Below the pieces are notes generated by a model. The model ran no database searches. It was not told the origin of the DNA and was given only the letters and a program-made list of their open reading frames with translations. Of a DNA stretch of 30,984 nt, positions 2,075 to 30,577 are shown one piece after another; position 1 is the first letter of the stretch; each line of letters begins with the position of its first letter. Both the position numbers and the translations under genes were made by a program. Source of the DNA: Saccoglossus kowalevskii. Its lineage: Eukaryota; Hemichordata; Enteropneusta; Harrimaniidae. The stretch is from the NCBI RefSeq assembly GCF_000003605.2, contig NW_003134369.1, positions 98,888 through 129,871 of the forward strand, given 5' to 3'.

Positions 2075-4124
2075 CTGAAAACAAACATAGAAATATGTTA
2101 TACATGTAATCGGTTGATATTAGAAAATGCATTTTCATCCTCGTATATTATATCACAGATTTTCTCTATTATAGTAGCACACACATTGTAGGGGATTATG
2201 TAACAGGGGTGTACCTATGGTCAAAATATCTTTATGTACAGTGTGCATGCACATGACTATGAAGCAATGAAAGATTCTTGCAAACTGAAAGACCTTTGGT
2301 TGAGTGTTGTCAGCGTGTCTTCCCAACCGTATTCATAGCAATTGTTCATCGTTGGCTTCAATATTTGCAGTATTCTCTTTAAAGTTTTTGCATTTTTTAC
2401 ATTGAAATTCACTCTTTGCTTCCAACTTTAGCTCACTGCTCCAAATTTTTTACAAAATCTGAAATATTCATTCACTTTAATACATTTTATGTGTGATGAT
2501 ATACATAAATTTAAAATTGCTATTGATAATATGTACAAAACTAAAGCTCTGCATAAAATCATTGTCAAATGTCTTTTTAATTTATTACTCATTTTCTTAC
2601 TTTTAGTGATGTCATAATAGAAATTATTATTTATATAAACTGAGTTGATTACACTGTAAGGCAGTGTTAATACACACAGTCAGGTCTTTCCAGGGAACTT
2701 TAGCAAAGACTGCCAGCCATCCAAACCTTGCAACTTGCAACAGACAGCATAGATACGTATGCTAACTTGTATAATGAGTAGCATATATAAAGTAGAGCCA
2801 GAGCAATAAACATTTTAAGTGATGCATGTGTAAATTACAATTATTGTTTCATAGCAATCTTCAATGTTATGTAAATACAGCAATCAAAACATGCCCAGTT
2901 AGAATCATTCACTGTGATAAAAATAACAACGCACAGCAGGAACTATATCAAGTGTTCACAGAACATGTGTTGAGTAGACTGGATTTCATATCAAAGTAAG
3001 GAAAACAACATGGTTTCCCTACTAATGTAATAAGGTACAATTGTGTCAAACACTGCCATCTGTACAGGATTTAGGGCAATAAGTCACAAGGTCAAGCCTG
3101 ACATGTTATATAAACTTATCCATTGCTAACTTTTATATAGTCTGTACATGTACATGTACTATATAGAATGGGAAATATTCACCAAGTTTAATTTTAGTTG
3201 ATATGACCAAGAATTAAATAGATTTGTTTCTGGTTTAAGGTTTCTAAAAAATGAAGCAGTCTTGCATTTTATTTTTATTTTAAGTTAACATGCACACAGA
3301 CCAAATACAGATACACTGGGGGGGGGGGGGGCATATCCCTAGGTTTTAAAAATACGGATTTGTGAAGGACACAATAAATTCAACACATTAAGTTGAATTT
3401 AGCATAGCTAGCTATCAGTGAAATTAGCGAACATAAAACCCAGAGAACTCTGTACAGTACTTCTATTTGAATATTACATTGTATACCTAGCAGCATTCTG
3501 CCCAAACCAATAAATTCCCTACTTACAGTTTATTATTAGGCAAAATATTATTATCCTGGAATACATATTTTTTGTAATTTTCATTACATTTTAATACTTA
3601 TATTTAACCTATAAATATCTGAAACCTAAAATAGCAGATGTTAAAAATATCTGTACAACAATGATATTAGTGTTATTACAGATTAACTTCCTCTAATAGG
3701 TGATTTTCCATTCAACTGTGGAATCTCGCGAGTTGCATGAAAGATGGGCACCGAACGTCTGCCACAAAAATCAAACGATTTGATTTTGAACTCAAATTTC
3801 TTTATTTCGTAACTCACATCAAAAGGCTGATCTTTGACAGGGGAATATTGCGTTTGAATACCATTACTTCATCGAAATTGACCATCATCAAATGTGTACA
3901 GCACATTATTAAGCATGGAAATACCCCCCAAAATACTTTTGCGTTTGTCGAATCAATTATGATGTTTGTCTCCACTACGACGCTATGACCTTTGTTTGTC
4001 CTGTTTTTATGTTCAATTTCAAACATAGCACAGGATCTTGCAGTGAACAGAAAATGGTCCATTAACAAATTGTATCAAGGGAATGGAGAAATATTCTCAG
4101 GGAGTAGTTGCATGGTAAACTCAC
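2075..4124 (-). other. Intron 2 of the WSC gene
   Basis: A 2,050-base AT-rich intron from the donor GG|gtgag of exon 2 to the acceptor tttcag of exon 3. It includes a 14-base G tract at 3318-3331 and palindromic acatgtacatgt at about 3146-3160. The open frames at 3737-3988 and 3814-4068 show no family features and overlap each other on opposite strands, so I read them as chance. Confidence 0.65.
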
Positions 4125-9365: not shown

Positions 9366-10010
9366 ATGTGTGTTTAATATATTATGTTAAACAGTATTTA
9401 TGACACAAATCTCGCTAGATTCTCACGTGACTTTTTATTCACGTGACTTCATAGTTCATTGTTGTTTTCTTTCGGTGCCATTTTAAAGTCAATTTTAAAG
9501 TCAAAGTATTTTATTCGTTGATCTTTCACTACAAACTCTTCCACGTGAATTCACCATGCAACGTAACATTGTAACTACTCGAAGCAGAGGCAGGAAACGT
9601 AAGGCATCCGCCGTCTCGACTGCAAATTCGCCTACGGAGGCTATTGATAACGGTACAAGCAGTCAGCCATCTACAAGTACGCGATCTCGGAGACTTGATT
9701 CAGACAACCCCGCAAATTGGACTGCGTCTACCCTGCGTGACAAGCTCTCGCAACTCGGGATAACGATGCTGACGAACATGACCAGGAAGAGTTTGCTTCA
9801 AGTTTTTGAACTCAATCACGGCTCTAATGTCACGTCAGGCCGTATGCCCAACATTCCGGCCAGAGAAGTGCGTTCACATGATGGGGGCTCATGACATGTC
9901 CATCCTGGTATGTTTCTTGTAAGCCAATGGATTTCGTTGTGTGCCCCCCTGTTTTGCCAAAGTAATAAACTTTATTTTTCATGTGTACCTATCTGTGTTT
10001 GTGTCATAAA
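9366..10010 (+). mobile_element. Composite element, unit 1 (carries the SAP-like ORF)
   Basis: The first of two head-to-tail units that share both ends. The 5' block A1 (about 9366-9525) and 3' block B1 (about 9870-10010) recur in unit 2 as A2 (about 10011-10180) and B2 (about 10590-10732). B1 and B2 differ at only about three positions over about 140 bp; A1 and A2 are somewhat more diverged. A1 contains two CACGTGAC-type E-box sites. B1 contains the poly(A) signal AATAAA (gtaataaactttattt). The middle of unit 1 is the ORF at 9556-9894. The layout A-ORF-B-A-x-B could be tandem copies of a non-autonomous element or split direct repeats of a tyrosine-recombinase retroelement; the class is unresolved. 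Confidence 0.65.
9556..9894 (+). CDS. Small basic protein with a SAP-like motif, encoded by the composite element
   Basis: A 112-codon ORF starting at ATG in a good context (ttcaccATG), followed 3' by a poly(A) signal. Residues 10-16 are a basic nuclear-localisation-like patch (SRGRKRK). Residues 17-50 are Ser/Thr-rich and probably disordered. Residues 54-86 look like a SAP DNA-binding helix-turn-helix: NWT, then L60-R61, L64, L67-G68-I69, T73-N74, R77-K78 and L80-L81 with family-like spacing. The last 8 or so codons lie inside repeat block B1, which also occurs without this ORF in unit 2, so the reading frame may have lost its original 3' part by deletion. A role in DNA binding for the element is inference. 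Confidence 0.55.
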   Translation: MQRNIVTTRSRGRKRKASAVSTANSPTEAIDNGTSSQPSTSTRSRRLDSDNPANWTASTLRDKLSQLGITMLTNMTRKSLLQVFELNHGSNVTSGRMPNIPAREVRSHDGGS

Positions 10011-15202: not shown

Positions 15203-15487
15203 TTTGGTGTAGCCTGAACACAATATATGAATAAATATTCTGTATTGGTTATAGTACAGTTTGGTGTAGCCTGAACACAATATATGAATAAATATTCTGT
15301 ATTGGTTATAGTACAGTTTGGTGTAGCCTGAACACAATATATGAATAAATATTCTGTATTGGTTATAGTACAGTTTGGTGTAGCCTGAACACAATATATG
15401 AATAAATATTCTGTATTGGTTATAGTACAGTTTGGTGTAGCCTGAACACAATATATGAATAAATATTCTGTATTGGTTATAGTACAG
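15203..15487. repeat. Perfect tandem repeat, 5 x 57 bp
   Basis: Five copies of a 57-bp unit starting tttggtgtagcctgaacaca lie end to end at 15203, 15260, 15317, 15374 and 15431. I see no differences between copies. Because 57 is a multiple of 3, the minus strand shows a 19-residue repeat in an open frame (15149-15607), but the repeated peptide is a by-product of the DNA repeat with no other sign of a gene. Perfect identity suggests recent expansion. Confidence 0.95.
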
Positions 15488-15536
15488 TTTTACAATAAAA
15501 ACTAAAACTCTAAGTAATAGTAGTGAATAACATGTC

Positions 15537-22310: not shown

Positions 22311-22755
22311 GTACCACAATTACAGGAGCCTATTATGCTTCACTTTTGATGAAATTAAGAGAACCTATCAAAATCAAGAGCCTGTAGGACAATGCTCCGG
22401 TCCACAACTCGCACGTCGCCAAATCAGAATCACGGGTGCGTGGCTATGAAATCCGCCCCACCCCCTTACTCTCCTGACCTTGCACCCTCTGACTTTTATC
22501 TCTTCCCACCCATGAAGTTGTTTTTGAAAAAAAAACGTTTCCCAGATGATGCAGCCTTGATTTCTGAAGTAACGACGTGATTGGAGGACCAACCTGGGGT
22601 TCTACAAAAACGGTGTCCAGAGCTGCATCAAACGATGGGAGAAATGCATAACTCTGGGTGGTTCATATGTATAGAAAGACTAATAACTGTGCAAAGTTTC
22701 ATTAATCTCCTGCTATGAGAAATGGGTCAGGGGCATCACTTATTGAACGCCCTCG
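22311..22755 (+). pseudogene. Mariner transposase C-terminal relic with 3' terminal repeat
   Basis: Motifs typical of mariner transposases occur in order but in shifting frames: TITGAYYASLL-like (about 22330), DNAPVH (22388), YSPDLAPSDF (about 22465-22496), then RWEKCI and GGSYV near the C-terminus (about 22635-22665). The Asp codons of DNAP (22388) and PSDF (22491) are 103 bases apart; a DD34D enzyme needs 105, so a 2-base deletion fits. At least one more frameshift, several stops and a deletion before DNAP are visible. The sequence acttattgaacgccctcg at 22738-22755 looks like a mariner 3' inverted repeat. The 5' half of the element and its first catalytic Asp region are missing. Inactive. 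Confidence 0.8.
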
Positions 22756-22885
22756 AATATGCCAACGACTTAGATCAAATATACAAATACATCTACCAAC
22801 TTTGCAATCACTTTGCACCGTGTTTTAGCAGCCTGAAACCACGATGTGCCGGCAGCATCTACACAAAATTCCACAAGCTGGCTTA

Positions 22886-22939
22886 CTCAGGCAGTATCGC
22901 TTGCAAGTACTAACCACGCCCGATTTAACTTTACTTTAG
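22886..22939 (-). pseudogene. 5S rRNA-derived fragment (copy 1)
   Basis: On the minus strand it reads a box A-like ctaaagtaaag, then atcgggcgtggttagtact, then tgcaagcg in place of the usual ttggatgggag. It covers the internal-promoter part of an animal 5S gene only; the 5' and 3' stems are missing. Confidence 0.7.
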
Positions 22940-23800
22940 ACATCGGTAGATCACCTTACCTCACTGCTGTATGAATAATTTGAAATTGGTTCGAATTGAT
23001 ACTATTTCATGCTAAGGCATTCTCTACAATTGATATCGTTTGCACATTAATTACTTGAATTGACCTATGACCTCTACATGATTCTAGTAACACTACGCTA
23101 GTTTAACGGCAATTTACGAAATATTCATTCACATTTTCAAACTCTTAACTATGGGTCCCGTCAATATAATATCGTATGAAAATATTACCAAATGAATCTA
23201 CTAACTTTGCAATCGCTTTTTACAACTTTATCGACCGTTTTTCGGTTCGCTGTTGAGATGATCTACTTACATATTGGACATTTTATAAACATTTACCTGA
23301 TGTTTTCAAAATTTAACTGCGGGGTTTCCATGACAATGACTTAGGTTAAATATACAAGCAACTCCGCCAACATTTAAATCGCCTTTTCCAACTTTGCATG
23401 CTGTTTTCTAACATTTTGCAGTCAGCTCATGTGAAGATTTATAGGCTGCTTTCAACTGGCTTTTATTGAATTTGTCGACTTTACAACTGCGCGTTTATAT
23501 ATGTAAACAACTTAAGTCATATAAAGAAATACATCTACCAAGTTTGCAATAACTTTGCACATCTATGCAATCACTTTGAACAACTTTGCACGGTGTGTTA
23601 ACCCACTAAGTGCGACAGCATTGACAACTTGTTCTTGAAAATTATAAAGCATTTGAAAACTTTCCATTAATTAAGAAGATTACAAAAATTCTTCGATTCT
23701 GCACTATAAATGATTGACATCACAGTAAGAAAGAACACCTTATATCTTTTCCATGTGTGTGATGAAAAAAAAAACGAAAGAAACAACAACAGCTCGTTTA

Positions 23801-23852
23801 CTCAGGGTGTCGCCCATGCAAGTACTTAGAACGCCCGACTGTGCTTTACTTT
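23801..23852 (-). pseudogene. 5S rRNA-derived fragment (copy 2)
   Basis: The minus strand reads gtaaagtaaagcacagtcggg, then gttctaagtacttgcatggg. It is the most diverged around the ggtt of box C. A run of A at 23765-23774 means T10 just downstream on the sense (minus) strand, a Pol III-type stop. Confidence 0.65.
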
Positions 23853-24290
23853 ACACATTTGTCGGCCAACTAACTAAACAGCTGCATGGATTATTTAAAA
23901 TTGAGACGAATTGGCGGCTATTTTTTTTTTTTTTTTAATGTTTTATAATCGATATCGCTTGCACAAGTACCTTCTAAAATTTACCTATGACCTCTACATT
24001 CTACTGGTAACACTATGATAATTTTACAGCAATTTACGAAATATTTATTCTCATTTACGATCTTTTAACCATATAACTTGTTAACATTATATCACAGGTA
24101 ACAATCCCGATAACAACTACCAACTTTGCAATCGCTTTTCACAACTTTGCGCGGTGTGTTAACAGCTTAAAACCTACTACGTGCCGACAGCATCAACAAA
24201 TTGTTCTTGAAAATTAGAAGGAATTTGAAAACGTTCCATTAATTTAAAAGATTTCAAAAATTCGACGATTCTTCATTATATATGATTGAC

Positions 24291-24565
24291 ATCAGTACCA
24301 GCTTTTTCGTTTCATCGCACACATGGACAAGATATGTGGCAACGTTTGTGCAATCTTGTTTACTATGATGTAAGTCGTGGAGATTTTTGTATTTTTTAAA
24401 TTCATGGAAAGTTTTTAAATGCCCTATAATTTGCAAAGAACACGTTATTGATCCTGCTAAAACACGGTGCAAAGTTGTGTATTTGTTCAGTTGACCTAAG
24501 TTGTTGGCATATAGAAGTCGAGAAAATTAATAAAAGCCAGATGAAAGCAGCCTATATTAGCACAT
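24291..24565 (+). repeat. 5S-derived repeat array, block 2 (forward orientation, short)
   Basis: The orientation flips near 24290. From here the sequence follows the forward units: gtttcatcgcacacatgga, gatatgtggcaac, cgtggagatttttgta, tgacctaagttgttggcata and aaagccagatgaaagcagc. It stops near 24565 within the unit. Confidence 0.7.
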
Positions 24566-25259
24566 AGTCACATAGTCCAGTCACTCTAGCAAAACCCGTC
24601 ACAAATTGCAACAGAAAATAATTTCTTCACATTGCTTTTCGGAAAGGTATCTAGATTGACATGCTAAACGTCTAGGATAATCTAGGCTTTCGAAATATAC
24701 CTAATTTGCATATATTCAAAATGGCCGTTTTGCACATTTTTACAACATGGAAATATAACTATTTGAACATATCTTTAATTCTAGTTGAAGTATTTTAAAA
24801 TTCATAATGCTATTGTACTGTTTTGAGTAGGAGAAGGTATGAGAGTGCCAAATGTGTTGATTGGGTAGATGAAAATTACCCTAAATCCAATATGGCCACG
24901 ATAATATATTTTTTTAGTGTAACTTCTTGTCCGGCTTCTCTTTTGTGTGGCATAAATAATAAGTTTAAGATGCTAGAATACAATTTTAAACAGAATCGTA
25001 CAGTAAGAAAACATGTAAATAAATGGTTTCCCGGAAAGACAGATGTTATCTGCATAAATCCAACATGGCCGTCACATTAAAAAAAACTAAGAGGAATGAA
25101 ACACCTTGGTTGGATTTACAATCTGCTATACTATATACATAATAGACTATTTAAACGTAAATTTTCAACTCTATAAACTATATTATTGATTTAACTGTAT
25201 TAAATAGTTATAATTCTGTCCAAAAGTTTATTGTTTGATTAATGTAATTGCTAATAGTC
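24566..25259. other. Unassigned DNA between the repeat array and the DIRS relic
   Basis: AT-rich sequence with aatatggccacg / caacatggccgtc / caaaatggccgtt phrases. The open frame 24823-25080 has no recognisable family. Together with the DIRS relic it interrupts the repeat array. Confidence 0.4.
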
Positions 25260-25875
25260 ATCACTATCTTCATTAGATATCTGAACTACATTTGTGCATC
25301 CAGATCATCGACATTGACCACAAACTGCAGAACAGTCAAGGTTGTGCTTTCTGCAGGTACATCTGAGACTGCGACAGTCTGTGGAGCAGTTGCATCTCAC
25401 TATCCTCAAGATCTTCAGGTGCTGCCTCCTTGTTAGTAATTACAGGAATGACGATCGGTTGTGGATCGCGTCCTGGCATTTGCTTCCTGGCGAGAAAGCT
25501 GATTCGTGTCTTTATCATGACTTGATTGCCCATAAAGGCGACAGACCCGTGGAGATGGACATGGCCCCTAGTTCAGCCCAACGTCAACCTGGGGCGGGGG
25601 TGAGTAGGAAGACTGTTTTCCACGTCAAAAGTTTGAGTGGTGCTGATCGGAGAGGCTCAAAGGGCAGTCTGCTTAGAGCGGCCAACACAACCGATAAGTT
25701 CCAATTGGTTGGTTCCCTCGTTTGGGGTCTAGCCTTCTGATTAAACAGTAAACAGTCTTCTAATGGAAGGATAACCGGCTAGCCTCGTCCTCGGACAACC
25801 CCAATGGTGGATGACAAGGAAGACCTATAGCCAACAATCGCTGAAAGGACAAGTCCATTTCGTTCAAAAGATGGA
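25260..25875 (-). pseudogene. DIRS tyrosine recombinase (partial, decayed)
   Basis: Minus-strand motifs typical of DIRS recombinases: LSAIVGYRSSL (about 25825-25860), WNLSVVLAAL followed by PFEPL (about 25651-25710), KTVFLL (about 25602-25619) and RWAEL (25566-25586), in which the Arg matches the first catalytic Arg of the family. A degenerate FLARKQMPGRDPQPIVIP stretch follows, then MYLQKAQP resembling the (RAL)xxYLxxT element. A stop codon lies directly before the catalytic Arg. The C-terminal catalytic His/Arg/Tyr region is not found below about 25260, where the sequence turns AT-rich. Confidence 0.75.
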
Positions 25876-26079
25876 CGAAAAGTCAGCTGTCTGGCCAACA
25901 AAGGGATGGCATGGAACTCCCTTCCACTACACTAATCGGTGTACGCACATCATTTTGAGGTGTAGGCTGTGTTGATGGGATCCCTGTTCACCCTGGCCAG
26001 GACGTTGGCAGCCCACTCAGACAAAATCTGAGTGAGTCAACTGAGAGCCTCAATGCGTGTAAGTGGTACACCACTGGGC

Positions 26080-26400
26080 TCAAAGGCAGTGCACCGCCTG
26101 GTTGGGACAGCACATCTGGAACTCCGGAAGGACCCCTGGTGTTTCGACTACCATTTCAAACAGTAGTGGAAACCAGACCTTGCTTGGCCTGTTGGGCATC
26201 ACCTGCATCAAAGTGCAGATGCGCTCCTGTCGAAGTTTCTCCAGTACCCAGTGAATAGCGGGAAGGGAGGAAAGACGTACACGTCCATCTGGGTCTATGG
26301 GAGTCGACAAAGTGTCCCTGGCCAAGGCTCCTGGAGTCAGCAGGAAGTACGTCAAAAGCTTGGCGTTCCAGATGTGCTAAATATGTCTAACCTTAAAGTG
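26080..26400 (-). pseudogene. DIRS RNase H to recombinase connecting region (decayed)
   Basis: The minus strand reads FLLTPGALARDTLS (about 26315-26350), a degraded PPF-like SLPAIHWVLEKLRQE (about 26235-26280) and RPSKVWFPLLFEM (about 26150-26190). These match the conserved region downstream of RNase H in DIRS elements (PGALAxDAL, AFPPF..I..VL.K.RQE, W..RPWFP.LL). Several substitutions hit the conserved positions. Confidence 0.7.
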
Positions 26401-26475
26401 TGCCAATGCTAAAACAGTCTGGAGGTTACCCATAGAGGTTATTCACCACTCAACGTTCTGGAGACAGAGCCGCCA

Positions 26476-27000
26476 CGAGAGGGCGTCCACTTGACTGTTT
26501 CTTGCCCCTGGAAGGTGGTGTGTGACTAGCTCCACATTGTATTCCAGGTGCCAAAGGGAAATTTGTTTCGCTATGACTTACAATGATGGGAATTTGGTTC
26601 CCCTCTCCTTGTAGCTATAGGAGACCACTGCTGTGTTGTCAGTATGAAGCAAGACTCTGTGGTCTTGAACTATGGGTGGAAAGTGAAGTAGTGCTAAGCG
26701 CACTTCTTTAAGTTTGACCGTGTATCGCCACCTAGAGAGTCCAGGGATCAGTTACGCACTGCCTATAAACCGAAATACACTGGTGCAATCAGTGTGACAG
26801 AGATGTGTGGGTTCAGCGGTTACACATCATGTGATCTCCTCCGCTGAGGTGAGACCCCACAAAGCCTGAAGAAATCCATAGGTTCCGACTCTGCCTCCCG
26901 CCGAACATATGCCCATCCCCTTGTCGCTGTACAGCCCCTGTCACGAGAGCCAGATGACATCGCAGAACATCCCGCTTAGCTTTGTGGTGTCCCACCAATG
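26476..27000 (-). pseudogene. DIRS RNase H domain (decayed)
   Basis: Minus-strand landmarks run in order: SHWWDTTKLSG (26971-27000), HTDCTS (about 26780-26797), LKEVRLALLHF (26680-26712), HTDNTAVVSY (26617-26646), then HLPGARN and VDALS (26476-26517). The Asp of TDCTS, Glu of LKEV, Asp of TDNT and Asp of VDALS correspond to the four acidic catalytic positions. Stops and frameshifts separate the parts. Confidence 0.78.
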
Positions 27001-27330
27001 GCTGAGTCTGCTGGTCTAGGAGGCTGGTGCATTCCGCCATTGAGACATGAGAGTGCTGGCAGAGCAAAACAGTTTGTTCCAGTGGGCTGGCCACAACTCG
27101 AAGGTTTCAGGTCGCCACTCTGCCACCAGACGAAATATTCCATGAACGCAGCCACCCCCTTTGTCATCCCACAAAACCAAAAAAAAATTGTGGTACCGGG
27201 GTCTGGAGAGGAACCGAAGGATCCGATCGGGTGCATTATTTGACTCGCGGCTCTGCTGGCTCCCATTGCAAACACCACTCGATCAGGTAGCGCTTGATCC
27301 ATCAAAAAAGTTTGAGCATAAAATTGAACT

Positions 27331-27477
27331 ATCCTAAAGACTTAGGCCTCTATCTCGCGGGGACCAAGGTCTGCCCATCAACACCGTCTGTGCGCTCCCC
27401 ATGGCGGGATCCAAAGCAATACCGAATGCAGGACTCTGGATCCCGGAAGTGACCGTTTCAGGATCGAAGGTGGGGGT
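27331..27477. other. GC-richer edge of the inserted segment
   Basis: This stretch continues the GC-rich composition of the DIRS relic up to the exact point where the 5S-derived array resumes. I could not match it to reverse transcriptase. It may be decayed element sequence. Confidence 0.4.
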
Positions 27478-28477
27478 ACATTAAGTACATTTTCTGAGAA
27501 TGCCTCATATATAAGCAGATTATCACAACAGTCAACGAAAAGTCGACAACAAACCGCTTACAAAGTTGTGAAAAGCGATTGCAAAGTTGGTAGTTTCATT
27601 CGGGAATGTTTTCTGTGATATCGTATTAACAAGTCCCATACGGCAACAGTTCTGCATTATTTCTTCCTGTGATGTCAATCATTATAGCAGAAAATCGTGG
27701 CATTTTTGTAACGTTTTTAACTAATGGAAAGTTTTGAAATTCCTTCTAATTTTAAAATACAAGTTGTTGATGCTGCCGGTATGTAGTGGGTTTTATAAGT
27801 TGTTAACGCACCGTGCAAAATTGTTCAAAGTCATTGCAAAGATATGCAAAGTTATTGCAAAGTTGGTAGATGTATTTGTATAAATGACCTAAGTTGTTGG
27901 CATTTAGAAACGCGCAGTTGTAAAGTCGACAAATTCAGTAAAAGCCAGTTGAAAGCAGCTTATAAATGTTCACGTGAGTTGACTGTAAAATGTTAGAAAA
28001 CAGCGTGCAAAGTTAGGTAAAAAACGTAAGAAATGTTGGCGGAGTTGCTTGTATACATAACCTCAAGTCATTATCTTAACAACCCCGCAGTTAAATTTCG
28101 AAAACATTAAGTACATGTTCCGAGAATGCCTCATATTTAAGCAGATTATCACAACAGTCACCGAAAAGTCGACAACAAACTGCTTACAAAGTGAAAAGCG
28201 ATGGCAAAGTTGGTAGTTTCATTCGGGATTGTTTTCTGTGATATCATATTAACAAGTCCCATAGTTAAAAGTTCGAACATGTGAATAAGTATTTCGTAAA
28301 TTGATGTTAAATTAGCGTAGTCTTACTCCAAGTATGTAGAGGTTATATGTCAATTGTAAAAGATACTTGTGTAAACGATATCGGTTTTAAAACATCACAA
28401 AACCTGAAATAGCCGCGAATTCGGCTTAATTTCGAATGATCGATGCAGTTGTGTGGTTATGTGATCGACAAATGTTT

Positions 28478-28514
28478 AAAGTAAAGCACGATCGGGCGTG
28501 GGAGACTCACTGAG
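28478..28514 (+). pseudogene. 5S rRNA-derived fragment (copy 3, internal deletion)
   Basis: Reads aaagtaaagcacgatcgggc followed directly by gtgggagac; the gttagtacttgcat part of box C has been lost cleanly. Followed by T8 at 28531-28538. Confidence 0.7.
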
Positions 28515-28530
28515 TAAACGAGCAGATGAA

Positions 28531-28538
28531 TTTTTTTT
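28531..28538 (+). terminator. T8 run, possible Pol III terminator
   Basis: Eight T lie 17 bases after the 5S-like fragment of copy 3. RNA polymerase III stops at runs of four or more T. Whether the unit is transcribed is unknown. Confidence 0.35.
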
Positions 28539-29275
28539 GTTTCATCACAAACATGGAAAAGATATACGGCAACATTTCTACATTTTTTCTTCCTGTGATG
28601 TCAATGATTTATAGTAGAAAATCGTGGCATTTTTGTAACTTTTTTAACTAATGGAAAGTTTCGAAATGTATTTGTATAACTGACCTAAGTTGTTGGCATA
28701 TAGAAACGCGCAGTTGTAAAGTCGACAAATTTAATAAAAGCCAGTTGAAAGCAGCTTAATATAGATGTTCACGTGAGTTGACTGTAAAATGTTAGAAAAC
28801 AGCGTGCAAAGTTGGAAAAAACGAAAGAAATCTTGACGGAGTTGCTTGTATATATAACCTAAGTCATTATCATAATAACCCCGCATTTAAATTTCGAAAA
28901 CATTAATTACATGTTCCGAGAATGCTTCATATATAAGAAGATTATCACTACAGTAACCGAAAAGTCGACAACAAACTGCTTACAAAGTTGTAAAAAGCGA
29001 TTGCAAAGTTGGTAGTTTCATTCGTGATTGTTACCTGTGATATCATATTAACAAGTTCCATAGTTAAAAGTTCGAACATGTGAATAAGTATTTCGTAAAT
29101 TGATGTTAAATTACCGTAGTCTTACTCCAAGTATGCAGAGGTCATAGGTCAATTGTGAAAGATACTTGTGTAAACGATATCGATTTTAAAACATTCCAAA
29201 ACCTGAAATAGCCGCGAATTCGGCTTAATTTTGAATGATCTATGCAGTTTTTGGTTAGGTGACTGATAAATGTTT

Positions 29276-29330
29276 AAAGTAAAGCACAATCGGGCGTGGT
29301 TAGTACTTGCATGGGAGTCTCCCCGAGTAA
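29276..29330 (+). pseudogene. 5S rRNA-derived fragment (copy 4, best preserved)
   Basis: Reads aaagtaaagcacaatcgggc, then gtggttagtacttgcatggg, then agtctcc. This aligns with animal 5S from box A (agctaagcag) through the intermediate element to box C (ggttagtacttggatggg) with few mismatches and correct spacing. The 5' region of 5S upstream of box A is not recognisable. Confidence 0.82.
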
Positions 29331-29348
29331 CCTGAGCTGTTGAATTTA

Positions 29349-29356
29349 TTTTTTTT
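29349..29356 (+). terminator. T8 run, possible Pol III terminator
   Basis: Eight T lie about 20 bases downstream of 5S-like copy 4, at the same relative place as in copy 3. Confidence 0.35.
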
Positions 29357-30079
29357 GTTTCATCACAAACATGGAAAAGATATACGGCAACATTTCTGCA
29401 TAATTTCTTCCTGTGATGTCAATCATTAAAGTAGAAAATCGTGGCATTTTTGATTGCAAAGTTGTGCAAAGTAAATGCAAAGTTGGTAGATGTATTTGTT
29501 TATATGACCTGAGTTGTTGGCATATAGAAACGCACAGTTTCAAAGTCGACAAATTTAATAAAGGTCAGTTAAAAGTCTATAAATATTCACATGAGCTGAC
29601 TGTAAAATGTTAGAAAACAGGGTGCAAAGTTGAAAAAAGCGATTTCATGTTGACGGAGTGGCTTGGATATTTAACCTAAGTCATTGTCATGGCAGCCCCG
29701 CAGTTAAATTTCGAAAACATCAGATAAATGTTCCGTGAATGCCTCATATATAGGCGTATTGTTACATGGACAGTAAACTGCTTACAAAGTTGTGAAAAGC
29801 AATTGTAAAGTTGGTAGTTTCATTTTAGGCTCGTTACTTGAGATATCATATTAACAAGTTCCATGGTTAAAAGATCGTAAATGTGAATAAGTATTTTGTA
29901 AATTGCTTTTAATTTACCGTAGTTTTACTCATAGTATGTAGAGGGCATAGGTCAATTCTAGAAGGTACTTATGCAAGCGATAGCGAATTTAAAACATTCA
30001 AGAACATGAAATAGCCGCCAATTCATCTCAATTTCAAACAATCCATGCAGCTGTGTGGTTAGGTGGCCAACAAATGTTA

Positions 30080-30129
30080 AGATATAGCACAATCGGGCGT
30101 GGTTAGTACTTGCATGGGGGACTGAGTAA
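30080..30129 (+). pseudogene. 5S rRNA-derived fragment (copy 5)
   Basis: Reads gatatagcacaatcgggcgt, then ggttagtacttgcatggggg and actgagtaa. It is well preserved through box C. A T5 run follows near 30146. Confidence 0.78.
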
Positions 30130-30205
30130 ATAAACTGTTGGAATGTTTTTCCTTTTATTTCATCATATAGATATAAAGCAACGTTACTGCGTTCTTTCTT
30201 AATAC

Positions 30206-30577
30206 ATGTACTCAGGCAGCATCCCATGCAAGTACTAACCACGACCGAATTAGCTTTACTTTAGACATCGGTCGATCACCTTGCCTAACTGCTGTATGAA
30301 TAATTTGAAATTGCTTCGAATTGGTGACTATTTCGTGTTTGGATATGCTTTGATGCATAATTCGAGTAACACTACGCTAGTTTAACGACAATTTGCGAAA
30401 TATTTATTCACATTTTCGAACAATGTGTCCCATTAATATAATATCATATGAAACATCATCAAATGAATTTCTCTACTTTGCGACCGCTTTTTCGCATCTT
30501 TGTAAGCGGCTTGTCGTCCGTTTTTTCAGCTCGCTGTTGAGATAATCTTGGCATGACAATGATTTAGGTCAAATATT
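30206..30577 (-). repeat. 5S-derived repeat array, block 4 (reverse orientation)
   Basis: The orientation flips again near 30205. This segment matches block 1 (22886-23345): the ctcaggcag...gcaagtactaaccacg phrase, gacatcggt.gatcacctt, ctgctgtatgaataatttga, taacactacgctagtttaac, ctgttgagat.atct and catgacaatgatttaggt. It ends near 30577. Confidence 0.8.
30211..30264 (-). pseudogene. 5S rRNA-derived fragment (copy 6, inverted partner of copy 5)
   Basis: The minus strand reads taaagtaaagctaattcggt, then cgtggttagtacttgcatgg, then gatgctgcctgag. It retains slightly more of the 3' side of 5S (gcctga resembling the gcctggg after box C). It faces copy 5 about 80 bases away. Confidence 0.78.

Follow-up and report, generated by a model that had tools for sequence, protein, structure and literature searches.

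The window analysed here is a 30,984-nucleotide (nt) stretch of the Saccoglossus kowalevskii genome (contig NW_003134369.1). Between positions 22757 and 30577 it holds an array of diverged copies of one repeat unit, among which lie six fragments derived from the 5S ribosomal RNA (rRNA) gene. The array very probably belongs to an abundant satellite, of which it is a decayed outlier with one part inverted; the unit of this satellite bears a degenerate copy of the animal's own 5S gene. The clearly recognisable remainder of that copy is the internal promoter (box A, intermediate element (IE) and box C) together with a downstream run of T. Unit mapping by BLAST and alignment gave the following layout:

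22757–24302, minus strand: left array part, satellite units (partial 22757–22865, then 22866–23776 and 23777–24302)
24303–30208, plus strand: inverted segment, with units 24303–24554 (partial), 27472–27852 (rearranged), 27853–28538, 28539–29356 and 29357–30208, and a foreign insert
24555–27471, no strand assigned: the insert, 2.9 kb without homology to the unit, decayed, possibly retroelement-like
28539–29356, plus strand: reference unit of 818 bp, a shortened version of the unit that measures ~941 bp in the genome
30209–30577, minus strand: right partial unit, starting at the 5S tail (BLAST unit mapping)

The longer matches of the reference unit to the satellite units of contig C1338 (see below) are 87–92% identical. 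Where same-strand neighbours are intact, the distance from one 5S core to the next within the window is 803 and 915 bp. The array had originally been described as one that switches orientation. The strand switches are real, and lie at 24302/24303 and 30208/30209, but the description was overstated, as a single ~5.9-kb inversion has one switch at either end. Reverse-complementing 24303–30208 lifts the scores of the joints against an intact unit from 111 to 135 and from 90 to 140; since both joints become continuous once the segment is turned, a single inversion accounts for both switches. GTAC is present at both joints, and the insert sits within the inverted segment. The stretches read of nine further contigs, seven holding satellite and two holding 5S genes, have all their cores on a single strand per contig, so that in this sample the family shows no tendency to invert.

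5S-derived fragments and downstream T-runs

The six fragments are given below with alignment scores against the species' own 5S gene and against human 5S, both computed in one comparison for each fragment.

22888–22923, minus strand: 5S-derived fragment (own 5S 58, human 42)
23803–23846, minus strand: 5S-derived fragment (own 5S 44, human 38)
about 28480–28519, plus strand: 5S-derived fragment with a 15-bp deletion, placed by alignment (own 5S 26, human 21)
29282–29317, plus strand: 5S-derived fragment (own 5S 62, human 47)
30079–30122, plus strand: 5S-derived fragment (own 5S 57, human 46)
30213–30248, minus strand: 5S-derived fragment (own 5S 63, human 42)

With human 5S as the reference and 60 dinucleotide shuffles of the whole window as the null, five copies score 38–47, against 26 for the best shuffle, and the alignment to 5S thus beats shuffled sequence. 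The original prediction counted at least six units with a match from box A through box C. This stands for five copies; in the sixth, at 28480, the deletion seen in the alignment removes the linker along with the adjoining ends of the IE and box C, so that the count becomes five plus one deleted copy. The strong match to human 5S covers nt ~53–97, and the 3′ tail matches it weakly (24 of 2000 shuffles are equally good). All six window copies score higher against the species' own 5S than against human 5S, which points to the lineage's own gene as their source. Variant bases of that gene (TTGCATGGG and GGCGTGG) are also present in the window fragments.

Runs of eight to ten T had been noted on the sense strand after three copies, and they are there, each a candidate terminator for RNA polymerase III (Pol III) identified from sequence:

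28531–28538, plus strand: T8, 3′ of fragment 28480
29349–29356, plus strand: T8, 3′ of fragment 29282
23765–23774, minus strand: T10 on the sense strand, 3′ of fragment 23803

Shorter runs follow fragments 30079 (T5) and 22888 (T4). The inversion severed the tail of fragment 30213, whose partner at 24303 carries a T5. As background, 9.5% of 40-nt sense windows in the array contain T5 or longer, and 2.2% contain T8 or longer.

The satellite family in the genome

A search of the 572-Mb assembly with the unit revealed an abundant satellite, one of the possibilities raised in the original prediction. Contig C1338 (47 kb) consists of the unit from end to end and has 48 cores, all on one strand and for the most part at ~941-bp intervals; C324 has 39 cores on one strand at ~943-bp spacing, in a 36-kb array within the 40 kb read of this 42-kb contig. 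Contigs C124 (six cores in 5 kb) and C115 (19 cores, mostly 728 bp apart) likewise carry their cores on one strand. Long head-to-tail tandem arrays with largely regular spacing, the hallmark of satellite DNA derived from 5S, are therefore present. They form two length subfamilies, of ~941 and 728 bp, the 728-bp consensus being 67.0–67.5% identical to three consensuses of the 941 type; within the C1338, C324, C124 and C115 arrays, mean pairwise divergence is 3.6–6.9%. The unit contains subrepeats of ~175 bp that are ~62% alike, none of them in the 5S part.

An 18-base 5S core occurs exactly at 3,936 places in the genome. Extended by the satellite-type 3′ flank it occurs at 755 places, and by the 5S-gene-type 3′ flank at 891; the variant pattern of the 728 type occurs at 17. 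These counts are lower bounds, because diverged copies escape exact patterns. Reversed-pattern controls gave 0 places for each core pattern, and the exact-core patterns gave 0 matches in the prokaryote and viral collections.

The own 5S gene is found in ~216-bp arrays in contigs C111 and C242, from each of which 10 kb were read. The C111 stretch contains 46 hits to the Rfam 5S model above threshold, at 44–94 bits, and the 941-type satellite consensus shares 31 consecutive identical bases with the own 5S gene. The two gene arrays are themselves diverged: an exact 30-base core is present in three of 47 copies in C111 (L045) and 10 of 47 in C242 (L055), and it is commoner in the satellites (20 of 48 in C1338 and 20 of 39 in C324). 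Three spacings of 118 bp in C111 correspond to a gene without spacer.

The constancy of the 5S part was examined in units found blind to it. A 26-base pattern outside the 5S part has 63 places in 11 contigs, and ten loci were sampled, one each from eight contigs and two from C4655, with none from C324 or C1338; C2490, which holds most of the 63 places, contributed one locus. All ten units carry the core, with 0–6 changes per 30 bases, and all ten have a T-run of 7–9. The segment homologous to the host 5S is thus a regular part of the unit, as had been expected, and few units lack it (the exceptions are given in the next section). C2490 (L059), found via this non-core pattern, has a ~936-bp array across 54 kb; the one unit read there shows two changes in its core (CATGG, TACTCGC).

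A run of T5 or longer lies within 75 nt of the core in all 66 units of a ~941-bp set and in all 10 units of a 728-bp set. The former comes from a narrower search of three contigs, in which a looser search finds 93 cores (48, 39 and 6), and the latter represents 10 of 19 cores. Both satellite consensuses are identical to the own 5S at 11 of 15 positions in box A, the weakest of the three boxes, at 6 of 6 in the IE, and at 15 of 18 in box C, with the box coordinates as we presume them to be. The sequence features of a type 1 Pol III gene, namely the three promoter boxes followed by a run of at least four T, are present, and Pol III transcription of the satellite units is plausible.

Origin of the arrays and rival explanations

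We suggest that a copy of the 5S gene was joined to a repeat built of the ~175-bp subrepeats, and that the composite unit spread via unequal exchange and similar tandem amplification, not retroposition. Small arrays, such as that in the window, would have been seeded elsewhere and would then have decayed.

Several results weigh against this reading. The regularity of the 5S part has exceptions: two double spacings in C1338 in which no core is recognised, a copy in C346 with 10 changes in 30 core bases, and the window copy at 28480 with its deleted core. The Rfam 5S model calls no window copy (two reach 11.5 and 12.5 bits, E-values 6.9 and 3.4, against a threshold of 38), and other scans of the window gave no 5S match; at ≤12.5 bits, the window copies are distinct from functional 5S genes, which score 44–94 bits in the 5S gene array. 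The 5S spacer has no similarity to the satellite unit, which leaves descent from a 5S rDNA repeat together with its spacer unsupported. Nucleotides 1–52 of human 5S have no recognisable match (1060 of 2000 shuffles equally good), and the upstream part of the own 5S, tested over a stretch that takes in a few conserved bases beside box A, aligns weakly (18 of 2000 shuffles equally good for the 941-bp form, 80 of 2000 for the 728-bp form). For the downstream part of the own 5S, the corresponding counts are 26 of 2000 and 11 of 2000; from this and the weaker upstream alignment, the unit may at one time have contained almost the entire 5S gene. Finally, the predicted RNA (29231–29356) folds no better than its shuffles (z −0.81; 42 of 200 fold equally well), and a structured-RNA reading was rejected on this result.

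Two origins by retroposition have to be considered, and for both the loci read are a small part of the genome. The original prediction had raised a family like short interspersed nuclear elements (SINEs). A 5S-derived SINE of the SINE3 type would be scattered through the genome by retroposition, each copy with 5S at its head and a tail like that of a long interspersed nuclear element. The order of a 5S-type promoter and a T-run agrees with this, as does the position of some copies within larger contigs (C6, C203, C346 and the window's C2620). However, the 728–941-bp units run head to tail along long contigs, and even in C6, C203 and C346 the copies stand in rows of two to four cores, with borders at differing unit positions and none at the 5S part. 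Among the loci read, no lone scattered copies that share both ends were seen, and none that begin at the 5S head between target-site duplications, and we consider a SINE extremely unlikely. A terminal-repeat retrotransposon in miniature (TRIM) with the 5S promoter in its long terminal repeat (LTR), of the Cassandra or Ajax type and amplified into tandem arrays, is also quite improbable. Ajax has a 5S fragment limited to the promoter (PMC10886601), Cassandra forms tandem arrays of LTR plus internal domain (PMC7215508), and the unit of 728–941 bp overlaps the 565–860 bp quoted for Cassandra. Yet each period contains one 5S part, with no close direct repeat containing it; no LTR pair is seen, because the longer direct repeats in the unit are only ~62% alike and exclude the 5S part, and the borders read lack common element ends. 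Nor did the loci yield an isolated copy from which such ends could be defined.

A transposable element with fixed ends was rejected on its borders: among the four 5′ borders read, those of the window and C346 lie within a few bases of one unit position, and those of C203 and C6 lie elsewhere. The 3′ border of the window array is at the homologous place of another subrepeat. Three borders, at window positions 22757 and 30577 and at 3518 in C346 (L049), coincide with, or fall close to, a TGACCTAAGTCA-like motif in the subrepeats, but so small a number allows no judgement; an apparent border at that motif position in C324 is a run of N.

The satellite might instead be kept for a function, its promoter copies recruiting TFIIIC and Pol III under selection, for instance for a role in heterochromatin, at the centromere or as a boundary, a possibility that we regard as doubtful. 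Besides the T-run in every sampled unit, two comparisons speak for it. Between the subfamilies a 30-nt core is the most conserved stretch (0.90 against a mean of 0.68, rank 1 of 171; 42, 37, 5, 16, 2, 3 and 1 regular-length units from seven contigs, others being dropped), and among the window's own copies a 26-nt core ranks 1 of 317, with a stretch outside the 5S part nearly equal. Both tests are biased by core-based choice: an exact core match had been the criterion for picking the contigs, and the window had drawn attention through its resemblance to 5S. The ten-unit blind sample, most of whose units belong to one close group, shows no excess (core 0.894, mean 0.893, rank 379 of 806); set against the C1338 consensus, its units are closer in the core than in the rest in nine of ten cases. 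Nor, outside C124, is the core unusually uniform inside the arrays: 197 of 912, 277 of 914 and 314 of 699 windows are as uniform or more so. Given the exact-core choice of contigs and the null blind test, the selection on the core that had looked strong at first (rank 1 of 171) may not be real.

The decayed satellite outlier that we favour has its nearest relatives in kind in PcP190 and 5SHindIII-DNA and, among retroelements, in Ajax and Cassandra. PcP190 of hyloid frogs is a tandem satellite with a unit of ~190 bp, in which a segment most likely from 5S rDNA (120 bp, ~70% similar to the 5S transcribed region) adjoins unrelated, variable sequence; PcP190 RNA reads were found in two species (PMC11675491; PMC4201667). 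The S. kowalevskii satellite likewise joins a 5S-derived segment to unrelated sequence in tandem, but its unit measures 728–941 bp and only the promoter region and T-run are clearly recognisable. The centromeric 5SHindIII-DNA of the fish Hoplias malabaricus is a tandem satellite with a partial 5S gene (95 bp of 360) and the rest of the unit resembling 5S spacer (PMC2713275; PMC11369246). It shares the partial 5S gene segment with the present satellite, whose unit, in contrast, has no similarity to the 5S spacer.

Ajax, a TRIM of two nemerteans, is an LTR retrotransposon that measures 421–434 bp, has a primer-binding site and is flanked by 5-bp target duplications (PMC10886601). Both it and the satellite carry only the promoter part of 5S (box A, IE, box C), but no LTRs, primer-binding site or target duplications were seen here, the primer-binding site and polypurine tract having had no systematic search; the two are set apart by the published description of Ajax rather than by its consensus sequence. 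Plant Cassandra elements form tandem arrays with a single 5S-type promoter and terminator to each period (PMC7215508; PMC10853983). One such promoter per period in tandem arrays is common to both, whereas the structure of LTR plus internal domain and the plant hosts belong to Cassandra.

Among the titles and abstracts listed from open-licence PMC papers, none describes a ~941-bp satellite bearing 5S. A 5S rDNA-derived satellite DNA is reportedly present on the B chromosome of the plant Plantago lagopus, to judge from a paper title.

Neighbouring features, predicted transcription and significance

Several other features of the window were noted. The insert at 24555–27471 has a minus-strand stretch that we take to resemble the RNase H region found in elements of the DIRS or Gypsy kind. 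Next to the array, 22440–22756 is a decayed stretch that we take to resemble a mariner transposase in its C-terminal part; it stops next to a TA at the left array border. Pfam gave no match above cut-off in the pieces of the insert and of this flank that were scanned. Farther away, a 131-codon open frame at 9499–9894, which we presume to be SAP-domain-like in appearance, has no Pfam match, and a 57-bp tandem repeat at 15203–15490 (5.1 copies, 100% matches) is open in two minus-strand frames. Matches to Rfam sRNA, miRNA, snoRNA and lincRNA families were rejected as all far under threshold; the miRNA matches in one scan arise from two 5S cores that face each other across an inversion joint.

Wherever its boxes are intact, the satellite could offer binding sites to TFIIIA, TFIIIC and Pol III. 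Initiation ~50 nt upstream of box A and termination at the T-run would give predicted RNAs of ~125 nt. The likeliest case is that the promoter is inherited baggage and that any transcription is low. It is unlikely, though conceivable, that the arrays serve as dense platforms for the 5S machinery, acting as competitors of the true 5S genes or as a buffer for them, with selection keeping promoter and terminator. If this were so, hundreds to thousands of promoter copies would bind TFIIIA, TFIIIC and Pol III, the ~125-nt RNAs would fuse satellite sequence to the 3′ half of 5S, and the unit outside promoter and terminator would be free to change in sequence and length.

For annotation, the family is a warning: the 18-base 5S core has 3,936 places in this genome, against 891 for the longer exact pattern of the 5S-gene type. 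Satellites derived from 5S are already known from many frogs (PcP190), a fish and, by title, a plant, and the long unit is the unusual part here. A long-unit satellite in which promoter and T-run are the clearly visible remains of the gene, with at least two length subfamilies in one genome, lets one ask in a natural setting whether a Pol III promoter benefits the satellite that carries it.

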